Assembly (NCBI GenBank): GCA_030425045.1
Contig: JAUHVL010000001.1
Location: forward strand, 248,001-312,000
Direction: 5' to 3'
Length of the DNA: 64,000 bases
Source: a bacterium
GTDB taxonomy: Bacteria > Bdellovibrionota > Bacteriovoracia > Bacteriovoracales > Bacteriovoracaceae
Every line of letters begins with the position of its first letter. The stretch's first letter is position 1. Shown here piece after piece: positions 47,734-56,620 of the stretch. The notes beneath the pieces were generated by a model, which was not told where the DNA came from, ran no database searches, and saw nothing but the letters and a program-made list of their open reading frames with translations. The position numbers and the translations under genes were made by a program.

Positions 47734-47752
47734 AATGGTCGGGCCGACTGGA
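47734..47752. repeat. left attachment repeat (partial tRNA-Pro 3' copy)
   Basis: Identical over 19 bases to 54585-54603, which spans the CCA end, acceptor stem and start of the T-stem of tRNA-Pro(GGG) (plus-strand AATGGTCGGGCCGACTGGA). It then diverges. It is a duplicated attachment core left by integration. Confidence 0.9.
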
Positions 47753-47793
47753 GCAATCCAACTATTCAAAATCATTTCGTTTTAAAAATGCTA

Positions 47794-47809
47794 GGTCACA
47801 AAAAGTCAC
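47794..47809 (+). repeat. GGTCAC/AGTCAC direct repeats near the left end
   Basis: GGTCAC at 47794-47799 and AGTCAC at 47804-47809, spaced 10 bases, lie 41 bases inside the left repeat. The same motif recurs three times at the right end in the same orientation. Spacing near one helical turn and location near both ends suggest integrase arm-type or Xis binding sites. Confidence 0.45.
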
Positions 47810-48126
47810 TAGGAAGCTAATTTATCCGCAATAGACTGATCTTTTGATAAAACTTCCAGCAGTCTTGAGGCCGCACCATCAGGTGTTCGCTGTCCTTGTT
47901 CCCACGCTCTCACTGTCGCTGTTTTCACGTTGAGTAGGGAAGCAAAAACGGGCTGGCTCATTTCAAAAACTTCTAATCGCAATTTCTTGATCGCCGTTTT
48001 AGTCCATTTGGGAGCAGGCTTGGAAAGTTTTCTCATGGTTTGTTTTCCCTTGAGTTCACCTTTCTCAATGGCCACCGCTTCACCTAGACTTTTTAAAAGG
48101 CCATTGGCCATACGTTTCTTTGCCAT
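47809..48126 (-). CDS. higA: HigA-type antitoxin (XRE family)
   Basis: 105 residues from ATG 48126, seven bases after AGGAG. The C-terminal half is an XRE HTH (EVFEMSQPVFASLLNVKTATVRAWEQGQRTP), the N-terminus is basic. It overlaps the toxin gene by one base (TGATG), toxin first, the HigBA order. It neutralises the toxin and probably represses the pair through the palindrome at 48462-48491. Confidence 0.85.
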   Translation of the reverse strand: MAKKRMANGLLKSLGEAVAIEKGELKGKQTMRKLSKPAPKWTKTAIKKLRLEVFEMSQPVFASLLNVKTATVRAWEQGQRTPDGAASRLLEVLSKDQSIADKLAS

Positions 48127-48461
48127 CACTCTTCTCCTTTCAATGTTGCCACAAGAGCCTTGAAAACCTTTTTCTCTTTTGGCGTTAAATCCTCAGACTC
48201 ATCTTTGCCATAGAGGTAGAGTAAATGGGTTATTTCTCTGTCGGGAATATCGAGATAAATGATCCTTAAACCACCTCGTTTTCCCTTTCCTCTCGATGAA
48301 TCGGGCATCCGCATCTTTCTTAGGCCACCAGTTCCAGCAATGACTTTGCCGATACTAGGGCTTTCTAGGATAGCGTCTTGAATTGCCTTTAAGAGGCTTT
48401 TATCGCCCAAGACTTCTAGTTTCTGTGAAAATGTAGGAGTCTCTTTGAACAGCCTCTTCAT
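48126..48461 (-). CDS. higB: HigB/RelE-type toxin
   Basis: 111 residues. The RelE/HigB fold is suggested by ETPTFSQKLEVLGDKSLLKAIQ, the conserved RGKGKRGGLRIIYLDI segment and LLYLYGKDESEDLTPKEKKVFK. Such toxins cut mRNA on the ribosome. ATG 48461 lies next to a large palindrome that holds the likely promoter/operator. Precedes the antitoxin gene with one-base overlap, and the pair would stabilise the island. Confidence 0.85.
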   Translation of the reverse strand: MKRLFKETPTFSQKLEVLGDKSLLKAIQDAILESPSIGKVIAGTGGLRKMRMPDSSRGKGKRGGLRIIYLDIPDREITHLLYLYGKDESEDLTPKEKKVFKALVATLKGEE

Positions 48462-48491
48462 AATACACAGTATTACATAATACTATGTATT
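48462..48491. promoter_or_regulatory. operator palindrome of the toxin-antitoxin pair
   Basis: AATACACAGTATT (48462-48474) and AATACTATGTATT (48479-48491) are complementary at 12 of 13 positions with a four-base centre, directly before the toxin start codon. The position suits autorepression by the HTH antitoxin; the AT-rich arms could contain the promoter -10. Confidence 0.65.
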
Positions 48492-48511
48492 AGTCAAGGT
48501 GCGTAAGAGTT

Positions 48512-48966
48512 TTAGCTTTTAACTAGGGGGATATCTTCACGGTTTTCGGCCCGCTCGGTAATTTCTTCTACTTGTTCGCTACTGAGGCTTTCTAACTTAC
48601 TTTTAGCCGTCCATTTCTTTCGGTTGTCTGGGGCAGCGTATTCATATCCCCAATACTCTGTGGCCTTGATATAAGGTCGTCTTTAAATTCAAAGAATGAA
48701 CTAGCAAAAGCTGTTTGCTCTGTATCGGCAGAAATGAAGGCAGTACAACTAACTATACTACCTTCCTCTAAGAGATGAAGTATTTCGGCAATATGATGAC
48801 CAGGGTATTCTCTATTCATTTCAACAAAATTTTCAGCACCTAAAAAGACTTCCTTAGACTGAGGCCAAATGGCTTTGAAGTCTGGATGGAAAAGACTTTT
48901 GGACTCATCCCATTTCTGTTCAGAGAATAACCGCCAGAGTTTACGAATAGTTTCTTTTTGATCCAT
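48512..48966 (-). pseudogene. frameshifted NTF2/SnoaL-like protein
   Basis: The frame from ATG 48966 encodes an NTF2/SnoaL-like fold (KETIRKLWRLFSEQKWDESK, LFHPDFKAIWPQS, HHIAEILHLLEEGSIV) up to about residue 98 (FFEFKDDL), then runs out of homology to a stop at 48592. Shifting the frame near 48678 restores ATEYWGYEYAAPDNRKKW, the expected end of this family, and runs to a stop at 48512. One lost base near 48678 explains it. It may be a pseudogene or a sequencing error. Intact function is unknown. Starts 9 bp after the integrase end. Confidence 0.75.
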
Positions 48967-48975
48967 GCCAAAAAA

Positions 48976-50150
48976 CTAGCTTTCTTGCCTTCTCAATTCA
49001 AGCACACTTGCGTTAAGAGTCTTGGGAAGGGAATAGCCGAGCTGATCTGTTGAGCCTTTAACATCGACACCTGCGAGCCGTAAATACTCGTCTGTTGTGC
49101 TTGTTTTGGAATGGCCACGATCGACATTACCTTTGGTAGCGAAACGCCTTGAGCCAGTAGATTGGTTATGAAGGTTGCCCGTAAGTCGTGAAACTTTACA
49201 GGCTCAAGACCAATCATTTCGCAAAATTCTCCTAAAACCTTGGCCTGATTTCCGTATTGCCACTCCTTTCTTCTCGGAAGAACCAAATCATCAAAAATGA
49301 GTGAGTCATCGTTTTTTCCGCCGAGATCTTCAGAGAACGGGCCGATATTTCTTAATTCCAAAAGTAAATTTGAAAGCTCTTTAGAAATTGGGCAGACCCT
49401 ATTTTGATTAGATTTTGTAGAGTGGTAACCATCTTTTTTACTCCATGAAGATTTGATCGTAATGATTCCTGAAACTTCATCAATATCAGACCATCTTAGG
49501 GCGTAGAGTTCTCCGCTTCTCATTCCACTCAAAAGAGCAAAAGCCCAATGGAAATAAAAAGGATGATTTGAATCTTTACCTTCAAGGAGAAGCTTTTCAG
49601 CCTCTTTGGTATTCAATACTCTCTTTTTTGATGGAGCTACTTTTATTTTAATTCCACTAACAGGATTTCTCGGTATGCCTCCATCTTCAACGGCTGCCTG
49701 AAAAATCCTTCTTAGATTTCGGCAGATTCTCTTCTGGGTATGGGCCGTAACCTTTCCACGACTTGGCATAGTTTCAAAGATAAAGTCATAGATATCGTGT
49801 TTGGTAATGTTACGAATCTCTTTTTCTTCAAGGTCTGGAGTTAGCCACTTCTTTAAGTCACCATCATATTGCATTATAGTGCTGTTTTTATGAGTCGTCT
49901 TAATACAGTTTAAAAACTTTTGGCGATACTCTTTAAAGCTTAGATGGCCACAGTCTCCACTTAGCCGAGCTTCTTCTTCCATTCTTCGCTTAAAGGCTGC
50001 TTGTTCCGCTAATCTATAGGAACTAAATCGTTGTCCTTTTTGATCTGTACGGAATTTTGGTTGATGTCTTTTCCCCGTTTTGGGGTCTGTAATACTTAGT
50101 TGGACTTTATAATAAGTCTTACTTTTGTGTTTATAAGCTTTAATCATCAT
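48976..50150 (-). pseudogene. tyrosine integrase, frameshifted before the catalytic His/Tyr
   Basis: From ATG 50150 (AGGAG seven bases upstream) the protein has the SAM-like core-binding region (about 70-160) and catalytic Arg211 (SGMRSGELYALRW), Lys near 246 and H321xxR324 (FHDLRATFITN). At residue about 345 (KVMSIV, near 49114-49118) the frame changes, and the next expected motif GHSKTSTTDEYLRLAG, with catalytic His and Tyr, is found only in the other frame, ending at stop 48976. The uninterrupted frame instead stops at 48993. Loss of one G from a GTGGGCC-like run explains this. As read, the integrase cannot act, so the island should be immobile unless another recombinase helps; an assembly error must be ruled out. 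Confidence 0.88.
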
Positions 50151-50353
50151 TGGTGATCTCCTTTGATTTGAGATACCAATAACTGGTCTAGCTTTTCTCG
50201 TCTGAATCTCAAGTTTCGTCCCAATTTTCCATCAACTGGTATTTGGCCTCGAGATACTTTTACTCTCAAGTTTTCTTCCGAAATACATAAATATTCGGCC
50301 GCTTGCTTAGAGTCTAACCATTCTTTTTGACTGTTAAAGATCTTGTCTTTCAT
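50147..50353 (-). CDS. excisionase-like helix-turn-helix protein
   Basis: 68 residues from ATG 50353, behind AGGAT. MerR-like HTH_17 domain (WLDSKQAAEYLCISEENLRV, GKLGRNLRFRREKLDQLL). Proteins of this kind act as excisionase or transcription factor beside integrases. Its stop overlaps the integrase start (ATGA), so the two are one operon. Confidence 0.82.
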   Translation of the reverse strand: MKDKIFNSQKEWLDSKQAAEYLCISEENLRVKVSRGQIPVDGKLGRNLRFRREKLDQLLVSQIKGDHQ

Positions 50354-50450
50354 ATTTATCATCCTGTTCTTAAAAGTTAAACTTCTTGGCCAAGAACTTG
50401 GTCAGAATGACATGGATAATTTATTGCCAGTGGTACAGAAACATGAATTC

Positions 50451-51218
50451 TTAATTTATTTTGACAACTTTTGGTGCGCCGCTAACTGGGCCTATATTCA
50501 TTGAACTAATGATATGGCCTTTGTAAAAACCAGCGACTCCAGCAGAATTGAAGGCGTTGATATCCCTTTTAAGGGTGCTTTTATAGAAATGTTCAGCAGA
50601 TTCGTTAAACAAGTAAATATTGTCTTTGAAAAGGTGGTAGAGGTTAGGGGACTTTTTTTGATCTTTGGTTTCGTCTTCATCGAAGGTTTTTCTAAGTTTC
50701 TGTAGAAAAGAAGACTTTCCTGGGTGGCAGTCTATCCCTAGTAGAACAAGGATTTTTGAAGCAAATAACAGTCCTTGGCTTTTTGACTCAAAATAGTTTT
50801 GTGACTTTAGATTTCCAAGTGAAGAGCCGTTTCCGTAAAGAAGGTAATGACAAAATTGCAGGATATGATGTTTTAGCTTTTGAGGGATTCTACCTTTAGG
50901 CAGATCAAGCCCTAATTTGTTCCATTCTTTAGTCTTTTTCTTATCGAAGGACGTTTGTTCGCTTTCTTCTCTCCTCGTTTTGGGAGCGCTACTCATAATA
51001 ATATGTGTTAATTGGTTTATGATTGTTGGAGCTGCTAGAGATCTAGGGGCTAATTCGCTGGGGATATTCTGATCTTCTTTTAAAAAAGTCTTAAGGTTAT
51101 TGATAATGTCTTCGGGGGAAAATCCACCTAGCTCCTCCGCCTTATAGGCCGCATATAAATACTCATGAAAATTAATTTCATCAACAATATTTAAAATGCA
51201 GTTTTTGTAAATTTTCAT
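50451..51218 (-). CDS. island protein of unknown function
   Basis: 255 residues from ATG 51218; a TTG at 51260 gives 14 more. No signal peptide or membrane segment. Mixed alpha, with Lys/Glu-rich segments (TRREESEQTSFDKKKTKEWN) and a CHYLLYGNGSS / GIDCHPGKSSF region with paired His/Cys but no known motif. Divergent from the plus-strand module by 87 bp, which is where the replication or packaging-control genes of satellites often sit. Function not recognised. Confidence 0.5.
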   Translation of the reverse strand: MKIYKNCILNIVDEINFHEYLYAAYKAEELGGFSPEDIINNLKTFLKEDQNIPSELAPRSLAAPTIINQLTHIIMSSAPKTRREESEQTSFDKKKTKEWNKLGLDLPKGRIPQKLKHHILQFCHYLLYGNGSSLGNLKSQNYFESKSQGLLFASKILVLLGIDCHPGKSSFLQKLRKTFDEDETKDQKKSPNLYHLFKDNIYLFNESAEHFYKSTLKRDINAFNSAGVAGFYKGHIISSMNIGPVSGAPKVVKIN

Positions 51219-51305
51219 GTTTTTGTACCACTGACTTTTAAAATTCTCGGTTAATTTCAAAGAAATTGTTCAAGAAGTTTCTGAAGCCTATCAGAGGAGG
51301 TCTTT

Positions 51306-51530
51306 ATGAGAAAGCGCAACTTCAAACTTTTGGCGGCACTGGCCGAGAAAGGTTTAAGACAAATTTACTTGGTAAACTTATCAGTCGTTAGCAACGAGTC
51401 GAGAATGTCAAAGATCATCAATTATCGTGTTGTGCCAAATCGGGCCGAAGTCGAAAAACTTGAAAATATCCTCGGAAAGACTTCAGAGCAATTGGACTTA
51501 AATTACGACTTAGTCGTTCAACAAAAATAA
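51306..51530 (+). CDS. small XRE-like HTH protein
   Basis: 74 residues with AGAGGAGG seven bases before ATG 51306. Sequence KLLAALAEKGLRQIYLVNLS, SRMSKIINYRVVPNRAEVEKLENILGKTSEQLDL fits a Cro-type HTH (helix, turn, recognition helix around SRMSKIINYR). It could be the regulator of the plus-strand module. Strong Shine-Dalgarno supports that it is real. Confidence 0.6.
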   Translation: MRKRNFKLLAALAEKGLRQIYLVNLSVVSNESRMSKIINYRVVPNRAEVEKLENILGKTSEQLDLNYDLVVQQK

Positions 51531-51564
51531 GTAGTTAGGTCTACTTAAAATTTAGGAGGCAGTT

Positions 51565-52260
51565 ATGGCAAGAGTTACTTGTTCTAGGTTATCTACGCCC
51601 TTTAAAGGAAGCATGGAAAATGAGTATTTTGAGATTAAGCGCTACGAATCCAATGATCTTGTGAAGAAGCGGGTTAAAGCATTGTTCTATATGAACAATA
51701 TTTTCATTGGAAACTCGTATCGAAAAAAGAGGGTCAGGCAGCATTTTAAGGTTAAAAAGAATGAATCAAATGTATATCTTCAGACCTTGGAGGAGGCATA
51801 CAATATCGTTAGGAAGCAACTTGACTCAAAATACCGTTTTGAAACTATTCAAACATTCCATGAACAGAGTTTGGCCAAGTTTTTAAACCTTAATCAAGTA
51901 AAAACAATTCGATCAATTTGGATAGGGAGAAGGAATATAGATCTGTATTTACCCGATTACGGCTTTGCTATCGAAGTAAATGGGCCAATTCATCATCAAG
52001 AAAGAAAAATGAAAAAGGATACCAGTCGAGATTTATTTTTTAATAATAATCAAATTCCAATTATGGAGATTGAAAATCAGGACATTAGAAAGAGAAAATA
52101 TTTTCTATTATCCAATTTAAAATATGAGAAAAAACTCAATTTAAGAGAGCGGGAAAAACGGGCATTAAACATTTATGCCATAACCGTTGCGACGTATTGT
52201 GATTGGTCTTGGATCGAGAACTTCTTTGGATACAACCTTCGTGGACTTGATGAGATTTAA
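51565..52260 (+). CDS. DUF559/VSR-like endonuclease
   Basis: 231 residues; strong TTAGGAGGCAG before ATG 51565. The C-terminal half has RRNIDLYLPDYGFAIEVNGP (Asp126, Glu137, Asn139), HH at 143-144 and Lys151-Asp152, then RDLFFNNNQIPIMEIEN, the layout of VSR/PD-(D/E)xK-fold nucleases with DUF559. The N-terminal 100 residues are basic and unassigned. It may cut phage or host DNA, or process packaged DNA. It is in an operon with the terminase gene 23 bp later. Confidence 0.7.
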   Translation: MARVTCSRLSTPFKGSMENEYFEIKRYESNDLVKKRVKALFYMNNIFIGNSYRKKRVRQHFKVKKNESNVYLQTLEEAYNIVRKQLDSKYRFETIQTFHEQSLAKFLNLNQVKTIRSIWIGRRNIDLYLPDYGFAIEVNGPIHHQERKMKKDTSRDLFFNNNQIPIMEIENQDIRKRKYFLLSNLKYEKKLNLREREKRALNIYAITVATYCDWSWIENFFGYNLRGLDEI

Positions 52261-52283
52261 CTTTTAAGGGGATTATTAAGGCC

Positions 52284-52811
52284 ATGAAAGAGATAAAAAG
52301 AAACTTAACTGATAAAGAACGAGTTTTTATTCATGAGTATATGAAGGATCTCAATGCAGCAGCGGCCTGTCGAAGGACGGGCTACTCTGCTCAAAATTCG
52401 GATAAAATTGGTCATCAATTACTAGGTAAAACTAGAGTTCGTGAAGAAGTTGATAAACTTTTGGCAGAGAGACTGGATAAAAATAATATTGATGTTGATA
52501 GGGTATTGGATGAGTTGTCCCTTATTGCTTTTTCAAGAATTGATAAGATTTTGGAGAACATTCGTAATGAAGACTATGAGAGGCCTGAGATGGCCGCTGT
52601 TAAAAGGTTTAAATACAATAAGAGCGATTATCATCAACTCCTTGAAGTTGCTTTATTGGACAAAGTAAAAGCTCTTGAGCTTCTGGGGAGATATCTTGGG
52701 ATGTTTGATCGCTCTAAAAATCATGTGCGGAGTGAGAGAGGCTTTTCTGAGAGATTAAATAAAAGGGTGAGGGAAGCATTACTGAAAAGAAGCAAGGCTG
52801 AGCGACTTTGA
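52284..52811 (+). CDS. phage terminase small subunit
   Basis: 175 residues. N-terminal LTDKERVFIHEYMKDLNAAAACRRTGYS is the HTH of P27/terS-type small terminases, followed by a central helical part (DRVLDELSLIAFSRIDKILENI) and a basic C-terminus. The subunit recognises the packaging site on phage DNA. No large subunit is present in this element. In satellites, terS redirects a helper phage's packaging to the satellite genome; in a remnant prophage it would be inert. The upstream ATG has AAGGGGATTATTAAGGCC. Confidence 0.75.
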   Translation: MKEIKRNLTDKERVFIHEYMKDLNAAAACRRTGYSAQNSDKIGHQLLGKTRVREEVDKLLAERLDKNNIDVDRVLDELSLIAFSRIDKILENIRNEDYERPEMAAVKRFKYNKSDYHQLLEVALLDKVKALELLGRYLGMFDRSKNHVRSERGFSERLNKRVREALLKRSKAERL

Positions 52812-52838
52812 AGGTCGTCCAGAGCTAAGTTATGTCTT

Positions 52839-53327
52839 TTATTGAAATGATTTAAGCTTATACATGGTTTTAGAATGGTGGTCGATTACTTTAAATATAC
52901 CATTATAGGGACCTTCTCCAATCCAAACGACACTTGAGCCTTGGTTGTAGTAATGGTCATACATAATTCTGATTGGAACCCAACTTGGCGGACTTTTTAT
53001 TTTACAGGTCACGTAAGGGCGATTTTCGATATTCATTACTTCAAACTTTCCAATTCCATGATCTTCACACCAGTCAACAATATCGGCTGCAGAGTAAGAA
53101 GGGAAATAAGAATCGTCTGCTCTCCAGGATTCTACATATTCTCCCCATGTATACTCAACTTTTACCAAATGTGATAAGAAGTCTTCATCAATTTTGGTTA
53201 CACTTTCTCGGATAATTTGGGGAGTATCTTCACCTATAGAACGATATTCATATTCGAGATAGTCTCCAAGAGTGATTGAATATATATTAAGGCTAAATAG
53301 AAAAAGTAGAAAACTGATAAGCTTCAT
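52839..53327 (-). CDS. exported protein of unknown function (island)
   Basis: 162 residues with signal peptide KLISFLLFLFSLNIYS. Mature part contains two Cys (DWCEDHG, VTCKIK) and a tail of GPYNGIFKVIDHHSK. No family recognised. It lies in the island on the minus strand 91 bp from the next exported gene; a cargo gene is likely. Confidence 0.6.
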   Translation of the reverse strand: MKLISFLLFLFSLNIYSITLGDYLEYEYRSIGEDTPQIIRESVTKIDEDFLSHLVKVEYTWGEYVESWRADDSYFPSYSAADIVDWCEDHGIGKFEVMNIENRPYVTCKIKSPPSWVPIRIMYDHYYNQGSSVVWIGEGPYNGIFKVIDHHSKTMYKLKSFQ

Positions 53328-53418
53328 AATAATTCCTTTGATTAGTTAATTTACTTTCAATTATAGGCTACGAGCTTTGAGAGAAATATATAGGAACACT
53401 TTTCCTTGCTTCGTATTG

Positions 53419-54000
53419 TCATTTGTTGACCTTTTTCTTTTTCTTTTTGTTAAGTGATTCTAAATGATCTTTAAGGGTAAAGGCTTTACGTTTTGACTTG
53501 TGAGGTTTTAATAGGAGATATTTCCATTTAATTTCTGAAATCCAATACTCTACTTTTCCATAGGGAATATCATATTGCTTGTCAAAAAAGATCCTCTCCA
53601 TTTCGCAGTCGCTATAGGCTCCATGATCTCCAGGAACAACAAATCGTCTGGTTTTATGTCTTTTATCATCGTATACAAAACTATCAGAAGCGACTTTTTT
53701 CCCATTCCGATTGTATAGACTAAAGTGAATTTTATAGTTTGCGATTGATTTTCGATAAGCTTTCTTATCTTTCCATATTCTTTGGCTATAGCTACTTCCT
53801 GCCCATGAGATAACTGTATGCTGGCCTTTCGCTTGAACGGTTGATGAGGGGTCGCAATCAAATCCCATCTTTCTAAAGTTGAGATCCTGTATATCTTCAG
53901 TCTTTCCACGATATTTTTTTCCCGTAAGGTCAACAAAGGTGATATTGGCAAAAGTGGAAAGATTAACCAACATTGTTAAAGCAATAAATATTCTCATCAT
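53419..54000 (-). CDS. exported protein of unknown function (island)
   Basis: 193 residues from ATG 54000 (AAGGAG six bases upstream). Signal peptide RIFIALTMLVNLSTFA; the mature part has two Cys and a strongly basic C-terminus (SLNKKKKKK). No known domain. It overlaps the XRE gene by four bases (ATGA), so the two are translationally coupled. Confidence 0.65.
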   Translation of the reverse strand: MMRIFIALTMLVNLSTFANITFVDLTGKKYRGKTEDIQDLNFRKMGFDCDPSSTVQAKGQHTVISWAGSSYSQRIWKDKKAYRKSIANYKIHFSLYNRNGKKVASDSFVYDDKRHKTRRFVVPGDHGAYSDCEMERIFFDKQYDIPYGKVEYWISEIKWKYLLLKPHKSKRKAFTLKDHLESLNKKKKKKVNK

Positions 54001-54275
54001 TTTATTCTCCTTAAGACGACTTCAAAGACGCCAGCGTTAATTTCATGTTCATAGTCTTGTATATTCTTTTGTTTCTCTTTGATTCCAAAGCAAAGGTAGT
54101 CGATGCTTACCTCAAGATAATCCGCAACTTTACGGACCTGTTTTAGGCTTCTCGGTTCCATTCCTGATAACCAGTTATGAAGGGTTTGAACTGGAACGCC
54201 TGACTTTTTGGAGAGTTGGGATACTGTGATTCCTTCCTCTTTGATGAGGTCACGTAAAACGGTTTTTAATTTCAT
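53997..54275 (-). CDS. XRE-family transcriptional regulator (island)
   Basis: 92 residues from ATG 54275 (MKLKTVLRDL); ATG 54293 is an alternative. XRE HTH at about 10-62 (TVSQLSKKSGVPVQTLHNWLSG, LKQVRKVADYLEVSIDYL). The ATG 54000 of the exported protein overlaps its stop. A 13-bp inverted repeat lies upstream at 54314-54377, suited to self-repression. Confidence 0.8.
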   Translation of the reverse strand: MKLKTVLRDLIKEEGITVSQLSKKSGVPVQTLHNWLSGMEPRSLKQVRKVADYLEVSIDYLCFGIKEKQKNIQDYEHEINAGVFEVVLRRIK

Positions 54276-54313
54276 ATCTATATCTTCTTCCATAAACAAA
54301 ATTTTCGTAATGC

Positions 54314-54377
54314 AGATTCCCACTCAAGATAGATAAATCCCTTGGGTGGGACTTTTTATTTCCGTGAGTGGGAATCT
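54314..54377. repeat. 13-bp inverted repeat upstream of the XRE gene; content of 54276-54586
   Basis: AGATTCCCACTCA (54314-54326) and TGAGTGGGAATCT (54365-54377) are exact complements 38 bases apart. A third partial match (GGGTGGGA) lies between them. They flank the region where the XRE promoter must be. The rest of the 310-bp gene-free stretch (54276-54586) holds three GGTCAC repeats near its right part and no recognisable gene. Confidence 0.55.
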
Positions 54378-54423
54378 TGGTTCAAAAAACAATCAATAGA
54401 TGGAAAGACTCGTTTAAAAAAAG

Positions 54424-54452
54424 GGTCACAAAAAAGGTCACATTTTGGTCAC
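54424..54452 (+). repeat. three GGTCAC direct repeats near the right end
   Basis: GGTCAC at 54424-54429, 54436-54441 and 54447-54452, spaced 12 and 11 bases and followed by A-rich spacers, lie about 130 bases inside the right att repeat. They match the left-end motif in sequence and orientation, so they may be arm-type integrase sites. Confidence 0.45.
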
Positions 54453-54584
54453 TCGGCGAGTAACGAACTGTAATTTTCTGTAATGTTGAAAAAAGAAAAG
54501 CTAGATAACTATTGGTATCTTGGTGTTAATAAAAATAAAAACTTAGTAAAACTTAATCGAAAAAGTAAAAATGATTTGAAGTTG

Positions 54585-54603
54585 AATGGTCGGGCCGACT
54601 GGA
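54585..54603. repeat. right attachment repeat (3' end of tRNA-Pro(GGG))
   Basis: The intact tRNA copy of the 19-bp core. Its counterpart at 47734-47752 is the leftover half. The tRNA 3' end faces the island. Confidence 0.9.
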
Positions 54604-54663
54604 TTTGAACCAGCGACCTTTCGCCCCCCAGACGAACGCGCTACCAAACTGCGCTACGGCCCG
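54587..54663 (-). tRNA. tRNA-Pro(GGG)
   Basis: 77 nt on the minus strand with encoded CCA. Acceptor stem CGGGCCG pairs with CGGCCCG; the anticodon loop CTGGGGG gives anticodon GGG (plus-strand 54627-54629), T-loop TTCAAAT. The 3' end is the target of the island and is duplicated at 47734-47752, yet the gene here is intact, so tRNA function is preserved. Confidence 0.97.
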
Positions 54664-55224: not shown

Positions 55225-55297
55225 AAGTCTTTTCTCTTTTAATAATATAGTACTTCGTTTATCGGTATTTTGATTGGATATATTTAGGACGCAAGAT

Positions 55298-56620
55298 ATG
55301 GAACCTTTTAAAAATGAGTTTTCATCACCTTTCATTAAAGATTTAGCAAGGTTGTATAATAAACACTTTAAGTCTTTTAATTCAAAAGGTTTTGAAAAAG
55401 CTGTTCTGGATAAAGATTGGGAAGATCGGGAACTAAAACAGCGAATGAGGCATATCACTCTTTGTACAAAGAAGTATTTTCCAGAAGATTATCTAGAGGG
55501 ATTATATATTATTTTAAAGGTAGCGCCTGAGTTTTCAGGGTTAAAGGGAATGTTGTTTCCTGACTTTGTTGAAGTCTACGGTCTTGATAAAAAATATCGA
55601 AAGCAAAGCCTAAATGCTTTAAAGTCATTAACTCCTTATTTTAGTTCTGAGTTTGCGATCAGGCCTTTTTTAAAAGATGACCTAATGGGAACATTAAAAG
55701 TGATGGAAGTTTGGAGTCGAGATAAAAATGAGCACGTGAGAAGACTAGCTTCCGAAGGTTGTAGGCCTCGACTTCCCTGGGGACAAGCTCTGCCTGAATT
55801 AAAAAAAGACCCTAAGCCTTTGTGGACTATTTTAGAGAGCTTAAAAAATGATCCAAGTGAATATGTTCGAAAATCGGTTGCGAATAGCTTAAATGATATA
55901 ACGAAGGATCATCCGGATTTGGTCTATAAAAATATTAAGGGTTGGGTTGGAAAGAGTCAGCACACAGATAAGCTGGTTAAGCATGCTCTTAGAACATTAT
56001 TGAAAAGTGGTGATGCGCGGGTGATGAAGTTATTTGGTTATGGAGATCCTAGAAAGTTAAAAGTAGAAGAGTTTTCTTTAAAAAATAAACGTATCGCCAT
56101 CGGTGAAAAATTGGAGTTCTCATTTCATTTAGCGATTAAAACACCAATGAAAGTAAGGCTTGAGTACGCTATTTATTTCTTATTAAAAAATAATCAATAC
56201 GGTAAAAAGGTTTTTAAAATTTCAGAAAAAGAAGTTGAGAAGGGAGTTCTCTCAATGGAGAGGGCCCATAGTTTTAGGACTATTACCACCAGAACGTTTT
56301 ATACAGGTGTGCATAAAGTTGCTCTTATTTTAAATGGTATTGAGCAAACCGCTCATGAGTTTAAACTTGTCGATAAAAAGCCTGATTGGTGGGTTTATAT
56401 GATTCAGACAGATAAGGGAAAGCTGTATACCGGAATAACAACAGATCTAAAAAGACGATTTGAGGAGCACGCCTCTGGAAAAGGGGCGAAGTACCTCAGG
56501 GGTAAAAAGTTAAAAGAGATGGTCTTCACGGAAAAACATCGGTCGAGGTCATCCGCTACCAAAAGAGAGATTGCTATCAAAAAACTCTCAAAAGCAGAAA
56601 AGCTAAAACTATTTTCGTGA
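55298..56620 (+). CDS. AlkC-like DNA alkylation repair glycosylase fused to GIY-YIG nuclease
   Basis: 440 residues from ATG 55298, eight bases after AGGA. Residues about 1-255 are helical HEAT-like repeats with the AlkC hallmark WSRDKNEHVRRLASEGCRPRLPWG region (split here: EHVRRLASEGCRPRLPWG) and KNDPSEYVRKSVANSLNDI. An Ig-like beta region follows (about 260-355, YAIYFLLKNNQYGKKVF). The C-terminus (365-440) is a GIY-YIG nuclease: WVYMIQTD, LYTGITTDLKRRFEEH and the conserved Glu in SATKREIAIK. AlkC removes alkylated bases by glycosylase action; a linked nuclease would cut at or near the abasic site. Such a single-chain combination is not one I know. Overlap with neighbours is none; possibly solo-transcribed. 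Confidence 0.82.
   Translation: MEPFKNEFSSPFIKDLARLYNKHFKSFNSKGFEKAVLDKDWEDRELKQRMRHITLCTKKYFPEDYLEGLYIILKVAPEFSGLKGMLFPDFVEVYGLDKKYRKQSLNALKSLTPYFSSEFAIRPFLKDDLMGTLKVMEVWSRDKNEHVRRLASEGCRPRLPWGQALPELKKDPKPLWTILESLKNDPSEYVRKSVANSLNDITKDHPDLVYKNIKGWVGKSQHTDKLVKHALRTLLKSGDARVMKLFGYGDPRKLKVEEFSLKNKRIAIGEKLEFSFHLAIKTPMKVRLEYAIYFLLKNNQYGKKVFKISEKEVEKGVLSMERAHSFRTITTRTFYTGVHKVALILNGIEQTAHEFKLVDKKPDWWVYMIQTDKGKLYTGITTDLKRRFEEHASGKGAKYLRGKKLKEMVFTEKHRSRSSATKREIAIKKLSKAEKLKLFS

Follow-up and report, generated by a model that had tools for sequence, protein, structure and literature searches.

The window, by which we mean the whole stretch of 64,000 nucleotides that was analysed, encodes a single polypeptide (P0001) in which a complete AlkC is joined to a GIY-YIG domain, and this fusion is genuine. 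We propose, with a probability of roughly 0.5, that the protein is a 3-methyladenine glycosylase carrying its own domain for strand incision, in which removal of the base would be coupled to incision, as judged from its sequence and that of its relatives. The features discussed below are collected in Table 1. The open reading frame is stop-free from its ATG start, its translation agrees with the coordinates and the length given in the initial annotation, and the protein is the sole match to the fusion in its own genome.

Table 1. Features of the fusion gene and of the adjacent integrated element; positions are those of the window and residues those of P0001.
Feature	Position	Strand	Remarks
Integrated element	47734-54603		within tRNA-Pro(GGG)
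Tyrosine integrase	48993-50150		in integrated element
Terminase small subunit	52284-52811		in integrated element
HTH regulator	53997-54323		in integrated element
tRNA-Pro(GGG)	54587-54663	-	insertion site of the element
AGGA, likely ribosome-binding site	55286-55289	+	8 bases 5' of the ATG, read directly
AlkC-GIY-YIG fusion gene (P0001)	55298-56620	+	440 aa
AlkC HEAT-like repeat catalytic domain	55298-56032	+	about residues 1-245
AlkC Ig-like domain	56048-56371	+	about residues 251-358; beta strands in the model, 5vhv alignment to residue 359
Short linker between the two enzymes	56372-56386	+	about residues 359-363
UPF0213/Slx1-like GIY-YIG domain	56387-56617	+	residues 364-440

The initial annotation had described one chain with AlkC-type HEAT repeats, an Ig-like domain and a GIY-YIG domain, and Pfam, phmmer and structural comparisons all agree with this description. 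The Pfam matches, each of which exceeds the gathering cut-off, are to GIY-YIG (PF01541, residues 364-435, E 3.4e-16), DNA_alkylation (PF08713, E 1.6e-6) and HEAT (PF02985, E 2.5e-5). No HhH-GPD domain is matched by Pfam or phmmer, and the glycosylase is of the AlkC type. The AlphaFold2 model, based on a 42-row alignment, has a mean pLDDT of 94.6 and a pTM of 0.82, and the junction between the two parts comprises approximately five residues, which tether the GIY-YIG domain directly to the Ig-like domain.

The AlkC part is complete. Residues 13-357 match the AlkC of known structure (5vhv) in phmmer with an E-value of 2.6e-68, and residues 1-359 of the model superpose on it with 2.0 A rmsd over 356 residues (Z 39), revealing a full-length solenoid of HEAT-like repeats followed by the C-terminal Ig-like domain, which according to this superposition is a part of AlkC proper. 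The best other structural matches, apart from AlkC and AlkD, were to PP2A and beta-glucosidases and were set aside as reflecting common HEAT or Ig folds. Eleven residues (E118, R122, R148, R149, E153, R156, W161, D185, N199, D200 and K203) are identical in 42/42 AlkC sequences drawn from many phyla. Among them, E118, E153, W161 and D200 correspond in structural numbering to E121, E156, W164 and D203 of Pseudomonas fluorescens AlkC, which we take to be the active-site residues. No key residue has been lost in this half of the protein, and the AlkC part very probably has glycosylase activity. In the course of the comparison we also came across AlkC-like frames of about 276-286 residues in L016 (G032), G105-G107, G137, G241, G258 and G269, which match only about residues 5-256 and apparently have no Ig-like domain.

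The GIY-YIG part belongs to a family of small proteins. Residues 360-439 match the UPF0213 proteins 1ywl and 1zg2 in phmmer (E about 2.5e-12), and in a Foldseek search with the domain modelled alone, at moderate confidence (pLDDT 76), UPF0213 folds rank first and Slx1 second, ahead of UvrC and homing endonucleases, in agreement with the sequence comparison. The motif has been defined by GIY, YIG, a central Arg and a C-terminal Glu, with the final Asn absent in the Slx1 family (PMC1564403), and Y367, Y377, R387 and E424, together with H391, fit this definition. These five residues and G379 are invariant in all 26 GIY-YIG domains of the family, fused and free, and no key residue has been lost in this half either. 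The domain is predicted, with reasonable confidence, to be active as a nuclease. Nuclease activity of any bacterial UPF0213 protein was not found in the literature searched, and Slx1 has only weak nuclease activity when its partner Slx4 is absent (PMC7017083). The same GIY-YIG family also occurs in L024:1489-2175 (G029), where it is fused to a 2-thiouracil desulfurase domain (PF04463/DUF523).

A search with P0001 of 129 genomes from its family and 369 from its phylum revealed five further full-length fusions with the same uninterrupted order of domains, at 43-47% identity (G081, G082, G083, G084 and G087). They come from five species, all of one other genus (g61), and the linker residues differ among the six fused genes; in a sixth g61 genome (G086) the end of a contig falls within the gene. 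The fused gene of G087 matches the public record L072. The two parts are separate genes in G092-G095, four species of genus g3, where alkC overlaps a free gene for a UPF0213 GIY-YIG protein by the 4 bases ATGA, in which the stop of one gene is the start of the other. In G101 (genus g17; L041:2540-2595) the frame for GIY-YIG and the end of alkC have about 30 bases in common, which include no ATG; either a rare start codon is used, or another fusion is masked by a sequencing indel. The genes are clustered in G020 (L149:4258-8399), where alkC, an adenine deaminase gene, a gene for a ChaN-like lipoprotein and the GIY-YIG gene lie on one strand, with spacing or overlap of at most a few bases; it is curious that an adenine deaminase should directly follow a 3-methyladenine glycosylase.

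When the AlkC type of P0001 is defined by an E-value below 1e-80 to this protein, it is present in 15 genomes of the family, 13 of which also have the GIY-YIG gene. The two are linked in 12 of these 13 (six fused, five overlapping, one clustered), and in the remaining one (G110) they lie on different contigs; G111 and G034 have the AlkC without a GIY-YIG match. A second AlkC type in the family (about 38% identity) exhibits no linkage to GIY-YIG among the matches listed. The same fusion in five related species and the overlapping neighbour genes elsewhere indicate that the join is real and that the AlkC and GIY-YIG parts probably work together.

Outside the family, AlkC matches in 395 Bacteroidota, 398 Pseudomonadota and 398 Bacillota genomes contained no fusion, and of the 80 best AlkC loci in a GTDB scan only L072, which is from Bacteriovoracaceae, is fused; rare cases may lie beyond these 80. 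Neither the fusion alignment nor the GIY-YIG domain gave a match in scans of viral sequences, a phage collection gave partial matches to the query, none covering 80% of it, and the best eight plasmid records among the matches listed have the AlkC part only. In the genomes sampled, the fusion is restricted to its lineage.

The phylogenetic trees and the gene neighbourhoods bear on how often the two genes were fused. In the AlkC tree the window protein groups with a Bacteroidota AlkC (support 95/93), apart from the g61 proteins (100/100), and the AU test rejects a single clade of all fusions (p 0.012). Downstream there is a fadD-like gene in g3, in g17 (G101) and in two g61 genomes (G084, G087), and a BrkB-type gene nearby is common to other g61 genomes and G020, while the fusion in the window is followed by an SMC gene and the fadD of its own genome has no adjoining GIY-YIG gene. 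Given the different neighbours and the separate positions of the AlkC parts in the tree, the two genes probably became linked on more than one occasion, and two independent fusions in the family are likely; this falls short of proof because the GIY-YIG tree, which is weak (77 columns), does not reject one fused clade (p 0.36). A fadD-like gene adjoins the GIY-YIG gene in several genera, with or without alkC (L020, L022, L026, L033, L035-L037 and L039-L041). In L020, L022 and L026 alkC is absent from that place, and it seems that alkC was added to an older GIY-YIG-fadD neighbourhood.

AlkC enzymes remove 3-methyladenine, 3-methylcytosine and 1-methyladenine without base flipping, their Ig-like domain helps to kink the DNA, and they are glycosylases without lyase activity. 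In the mechanism that we propose, the AlkC part would find small cationic alkylated bases, chiefly 3-methyladenine, use its Ig-like domain to help kink the DNA, and cut the base from the sugar, after which the GIY-YIG domain would nick the same DNA by a metal-dependent, hydrolytic reaction at or beside the abasic site or the kink, so that base removal would be handed over to strand incision within a single molecule. The preference for 3-methyladenine and the kink are presumed from what is known of the AlkC family, and the activity of the GIY-YIG domain, its choice of the lesion strand and the position of the cut are putative. The proposal draws on the architecture, on the retention of both active sites, on the repeated linkage by fusion or overlapping operon and on the restriction to one lineage. 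A fuller version, which we put forward more tentatively, would have a self-contained base-excision incision enzyme, in which a non-flipping glycosylase kinks the DNA sharply and leaves an abasic site there, next to which the tethered GIY-YIG domain hydrolyses the backbone, evolve at least twice from a two-gene operon within one family.

Such an enzyme would not be the only AP-site cutter of its genome, because separate AP endonuclease genes are present: each of the 11 fused or linked genomes that were checked has an ExoIII-type AP endonuclease, a gene of the EndoIV type (PF01261) and one or two HhH-GPD glycosylases. The idea that the fusion compensates for missing AP endonucleases is hence unsupported, and the fusion would make the handover faster or shield it, not supply a missing activity.

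The foremost alternative, which we regard as possible although unlikely, is that the GIY-YIG domain is an Slx1-like structure-selective nuclease that AlkC brings to replication forks blocked by alkylation, where it would cut branched DNA near the lesion and not the AP site. It is in line with the nearest solved relatives of the domain, which are UPF0213 proteins and then Slx1, and with the established fact that 3-methyladenine blocks polymerases; however, no constant fork-processing partner gene lies nearby, and the neighbours vary by lineage.

Somewhat less probable still is that the two enzymes were joined for co-expression only and perform separate repair jobs with no handover. Linkage need not imply joint chemistry, because in the G020 cluster an adenine deaminase gene and one for a ChaN-like lipoprotein stand between alkC and the GIY-YIG gene, and the fusion to 2-thiouracil desulfurase in a relative points in the same direction, as does the observation that GIY-YIG domains are mobile and some of their fusions incidental (PMC1564403). 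What this explanation accounts for poorly is that the same two partners were linked repeatedly, and probably fused repeatedly, in an unchanged order and with both active sites intact.

A third possibility is an anti-phage or restriction enzyme, in which AlkC would recognize modified invading DNA and the GIY-YIG domain would cut it; both GIY-YIG and glycosylase restriction enzymes exist, and the gene has an integrated element with a phage integrase as its neighbour. This element, which is bounded by exact 19-bp repeats AATGGTCGGGCCGACTGGA at 47734-47752 and 54585-54603, looks like a phage-satellite-type element; one of its proteins (51565-52260) has weak matches to a bacterial PH domain (E 9e-4) and to DpdF in PADLOC (E 1.2e-3 over 56 residues). 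The fusion gene is not a part of it, as the element ends at tRNA-Pro, before the gene. P0001 has no PADLOC match at E 0.01, which sets aside a known defence system, the neighbours in other species are of housekeeping type, and the core residues of its AlkC are those of ordinary AlkC, all of which renders a defensive role very improbable. Finally, a sequencing or assembly artefact joining two genes, against which the initial annotation had warned in the form of a frameshift, has nothing direct in its favour except that a single indel could fuse genes that overlap in relatives, and is ruled out for practical purposes because the architecture is found unbroken in five other species, at 43-47% identity and with differing linkers.

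The reading that we prefer, a glycosylase with its own incising domain, touches on the standing question of how glycosylases without lyase activity hand AP sites, which are toxic when free, over to an incising enzyme. The natural fusion makes this handover directly testable, and the sister species in which the two genes are split provide ready controls. Besides, the fusion would give a first lead on the role of the widespread, little-characterised UPF0213 GIY-YIG proteins.

Both domains belong to known families. The AlkC of P. fluorescens (5vhv, 5vi0) resembles the fusion in its HEAT-like repeats, Ig-like domain and core residues (38-39% identity), but it ends with the Ig-like domain, where the fusion has about 80 further residues that form the GIY-YIG domain. 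The small UPF0213/Slx1-like proteins (BH0048, 1zg2; EF2693, 1ywl; E. coli YhbQ) share the sequence family, fold and signature residues of that domain, but are normally free proteins of about 80-110 residues, whereas the domain in the window is tethered to a glycosylase. UvrC and Slx1 likewise have a GIY-YIG incision domain that another module brings to damaged or branched DNA; however, UvrC depends on UvrAB and a second nuclease domain and Slx1 on Slx4, and neither removes a base. The initial annotation knew of no described example of such a two-step enzyme. This holds for AlkC, as no description of an AlkC with a nuclease domain was found in the literature searched and the combination appears to be undescribed there, but not for glycosylases in general: a fusion of endonuclease III to a GIY-YIG domain (COG1833) is present in two Methanococcales (e.g. 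MJ0613) and was proposed to cut on both sides of the damage (PMC1564403). That protein also combines a DNA glycosylase with a GIY-YIG domain, but it is archaeal, its helix-hairpin-helix glycosylase already has AP-lyase activity and its GIY-YIG domain is of another family; P0001 has no helix-hairpin-helix GPD domain. That one protein removes the base and cuts the strand is ordinary for bifunctional glycosylases (Nth, Fpg, OGG1), which cut by AP-lyase chemistry, that is by beta-elimination in one active site, whereas the fusion would use a separate hydrolytic nuclease domain. What is new here is the joining of AlkC, a glycosylase without lyase activity, to a predicted hydrolytic nuclease domain.
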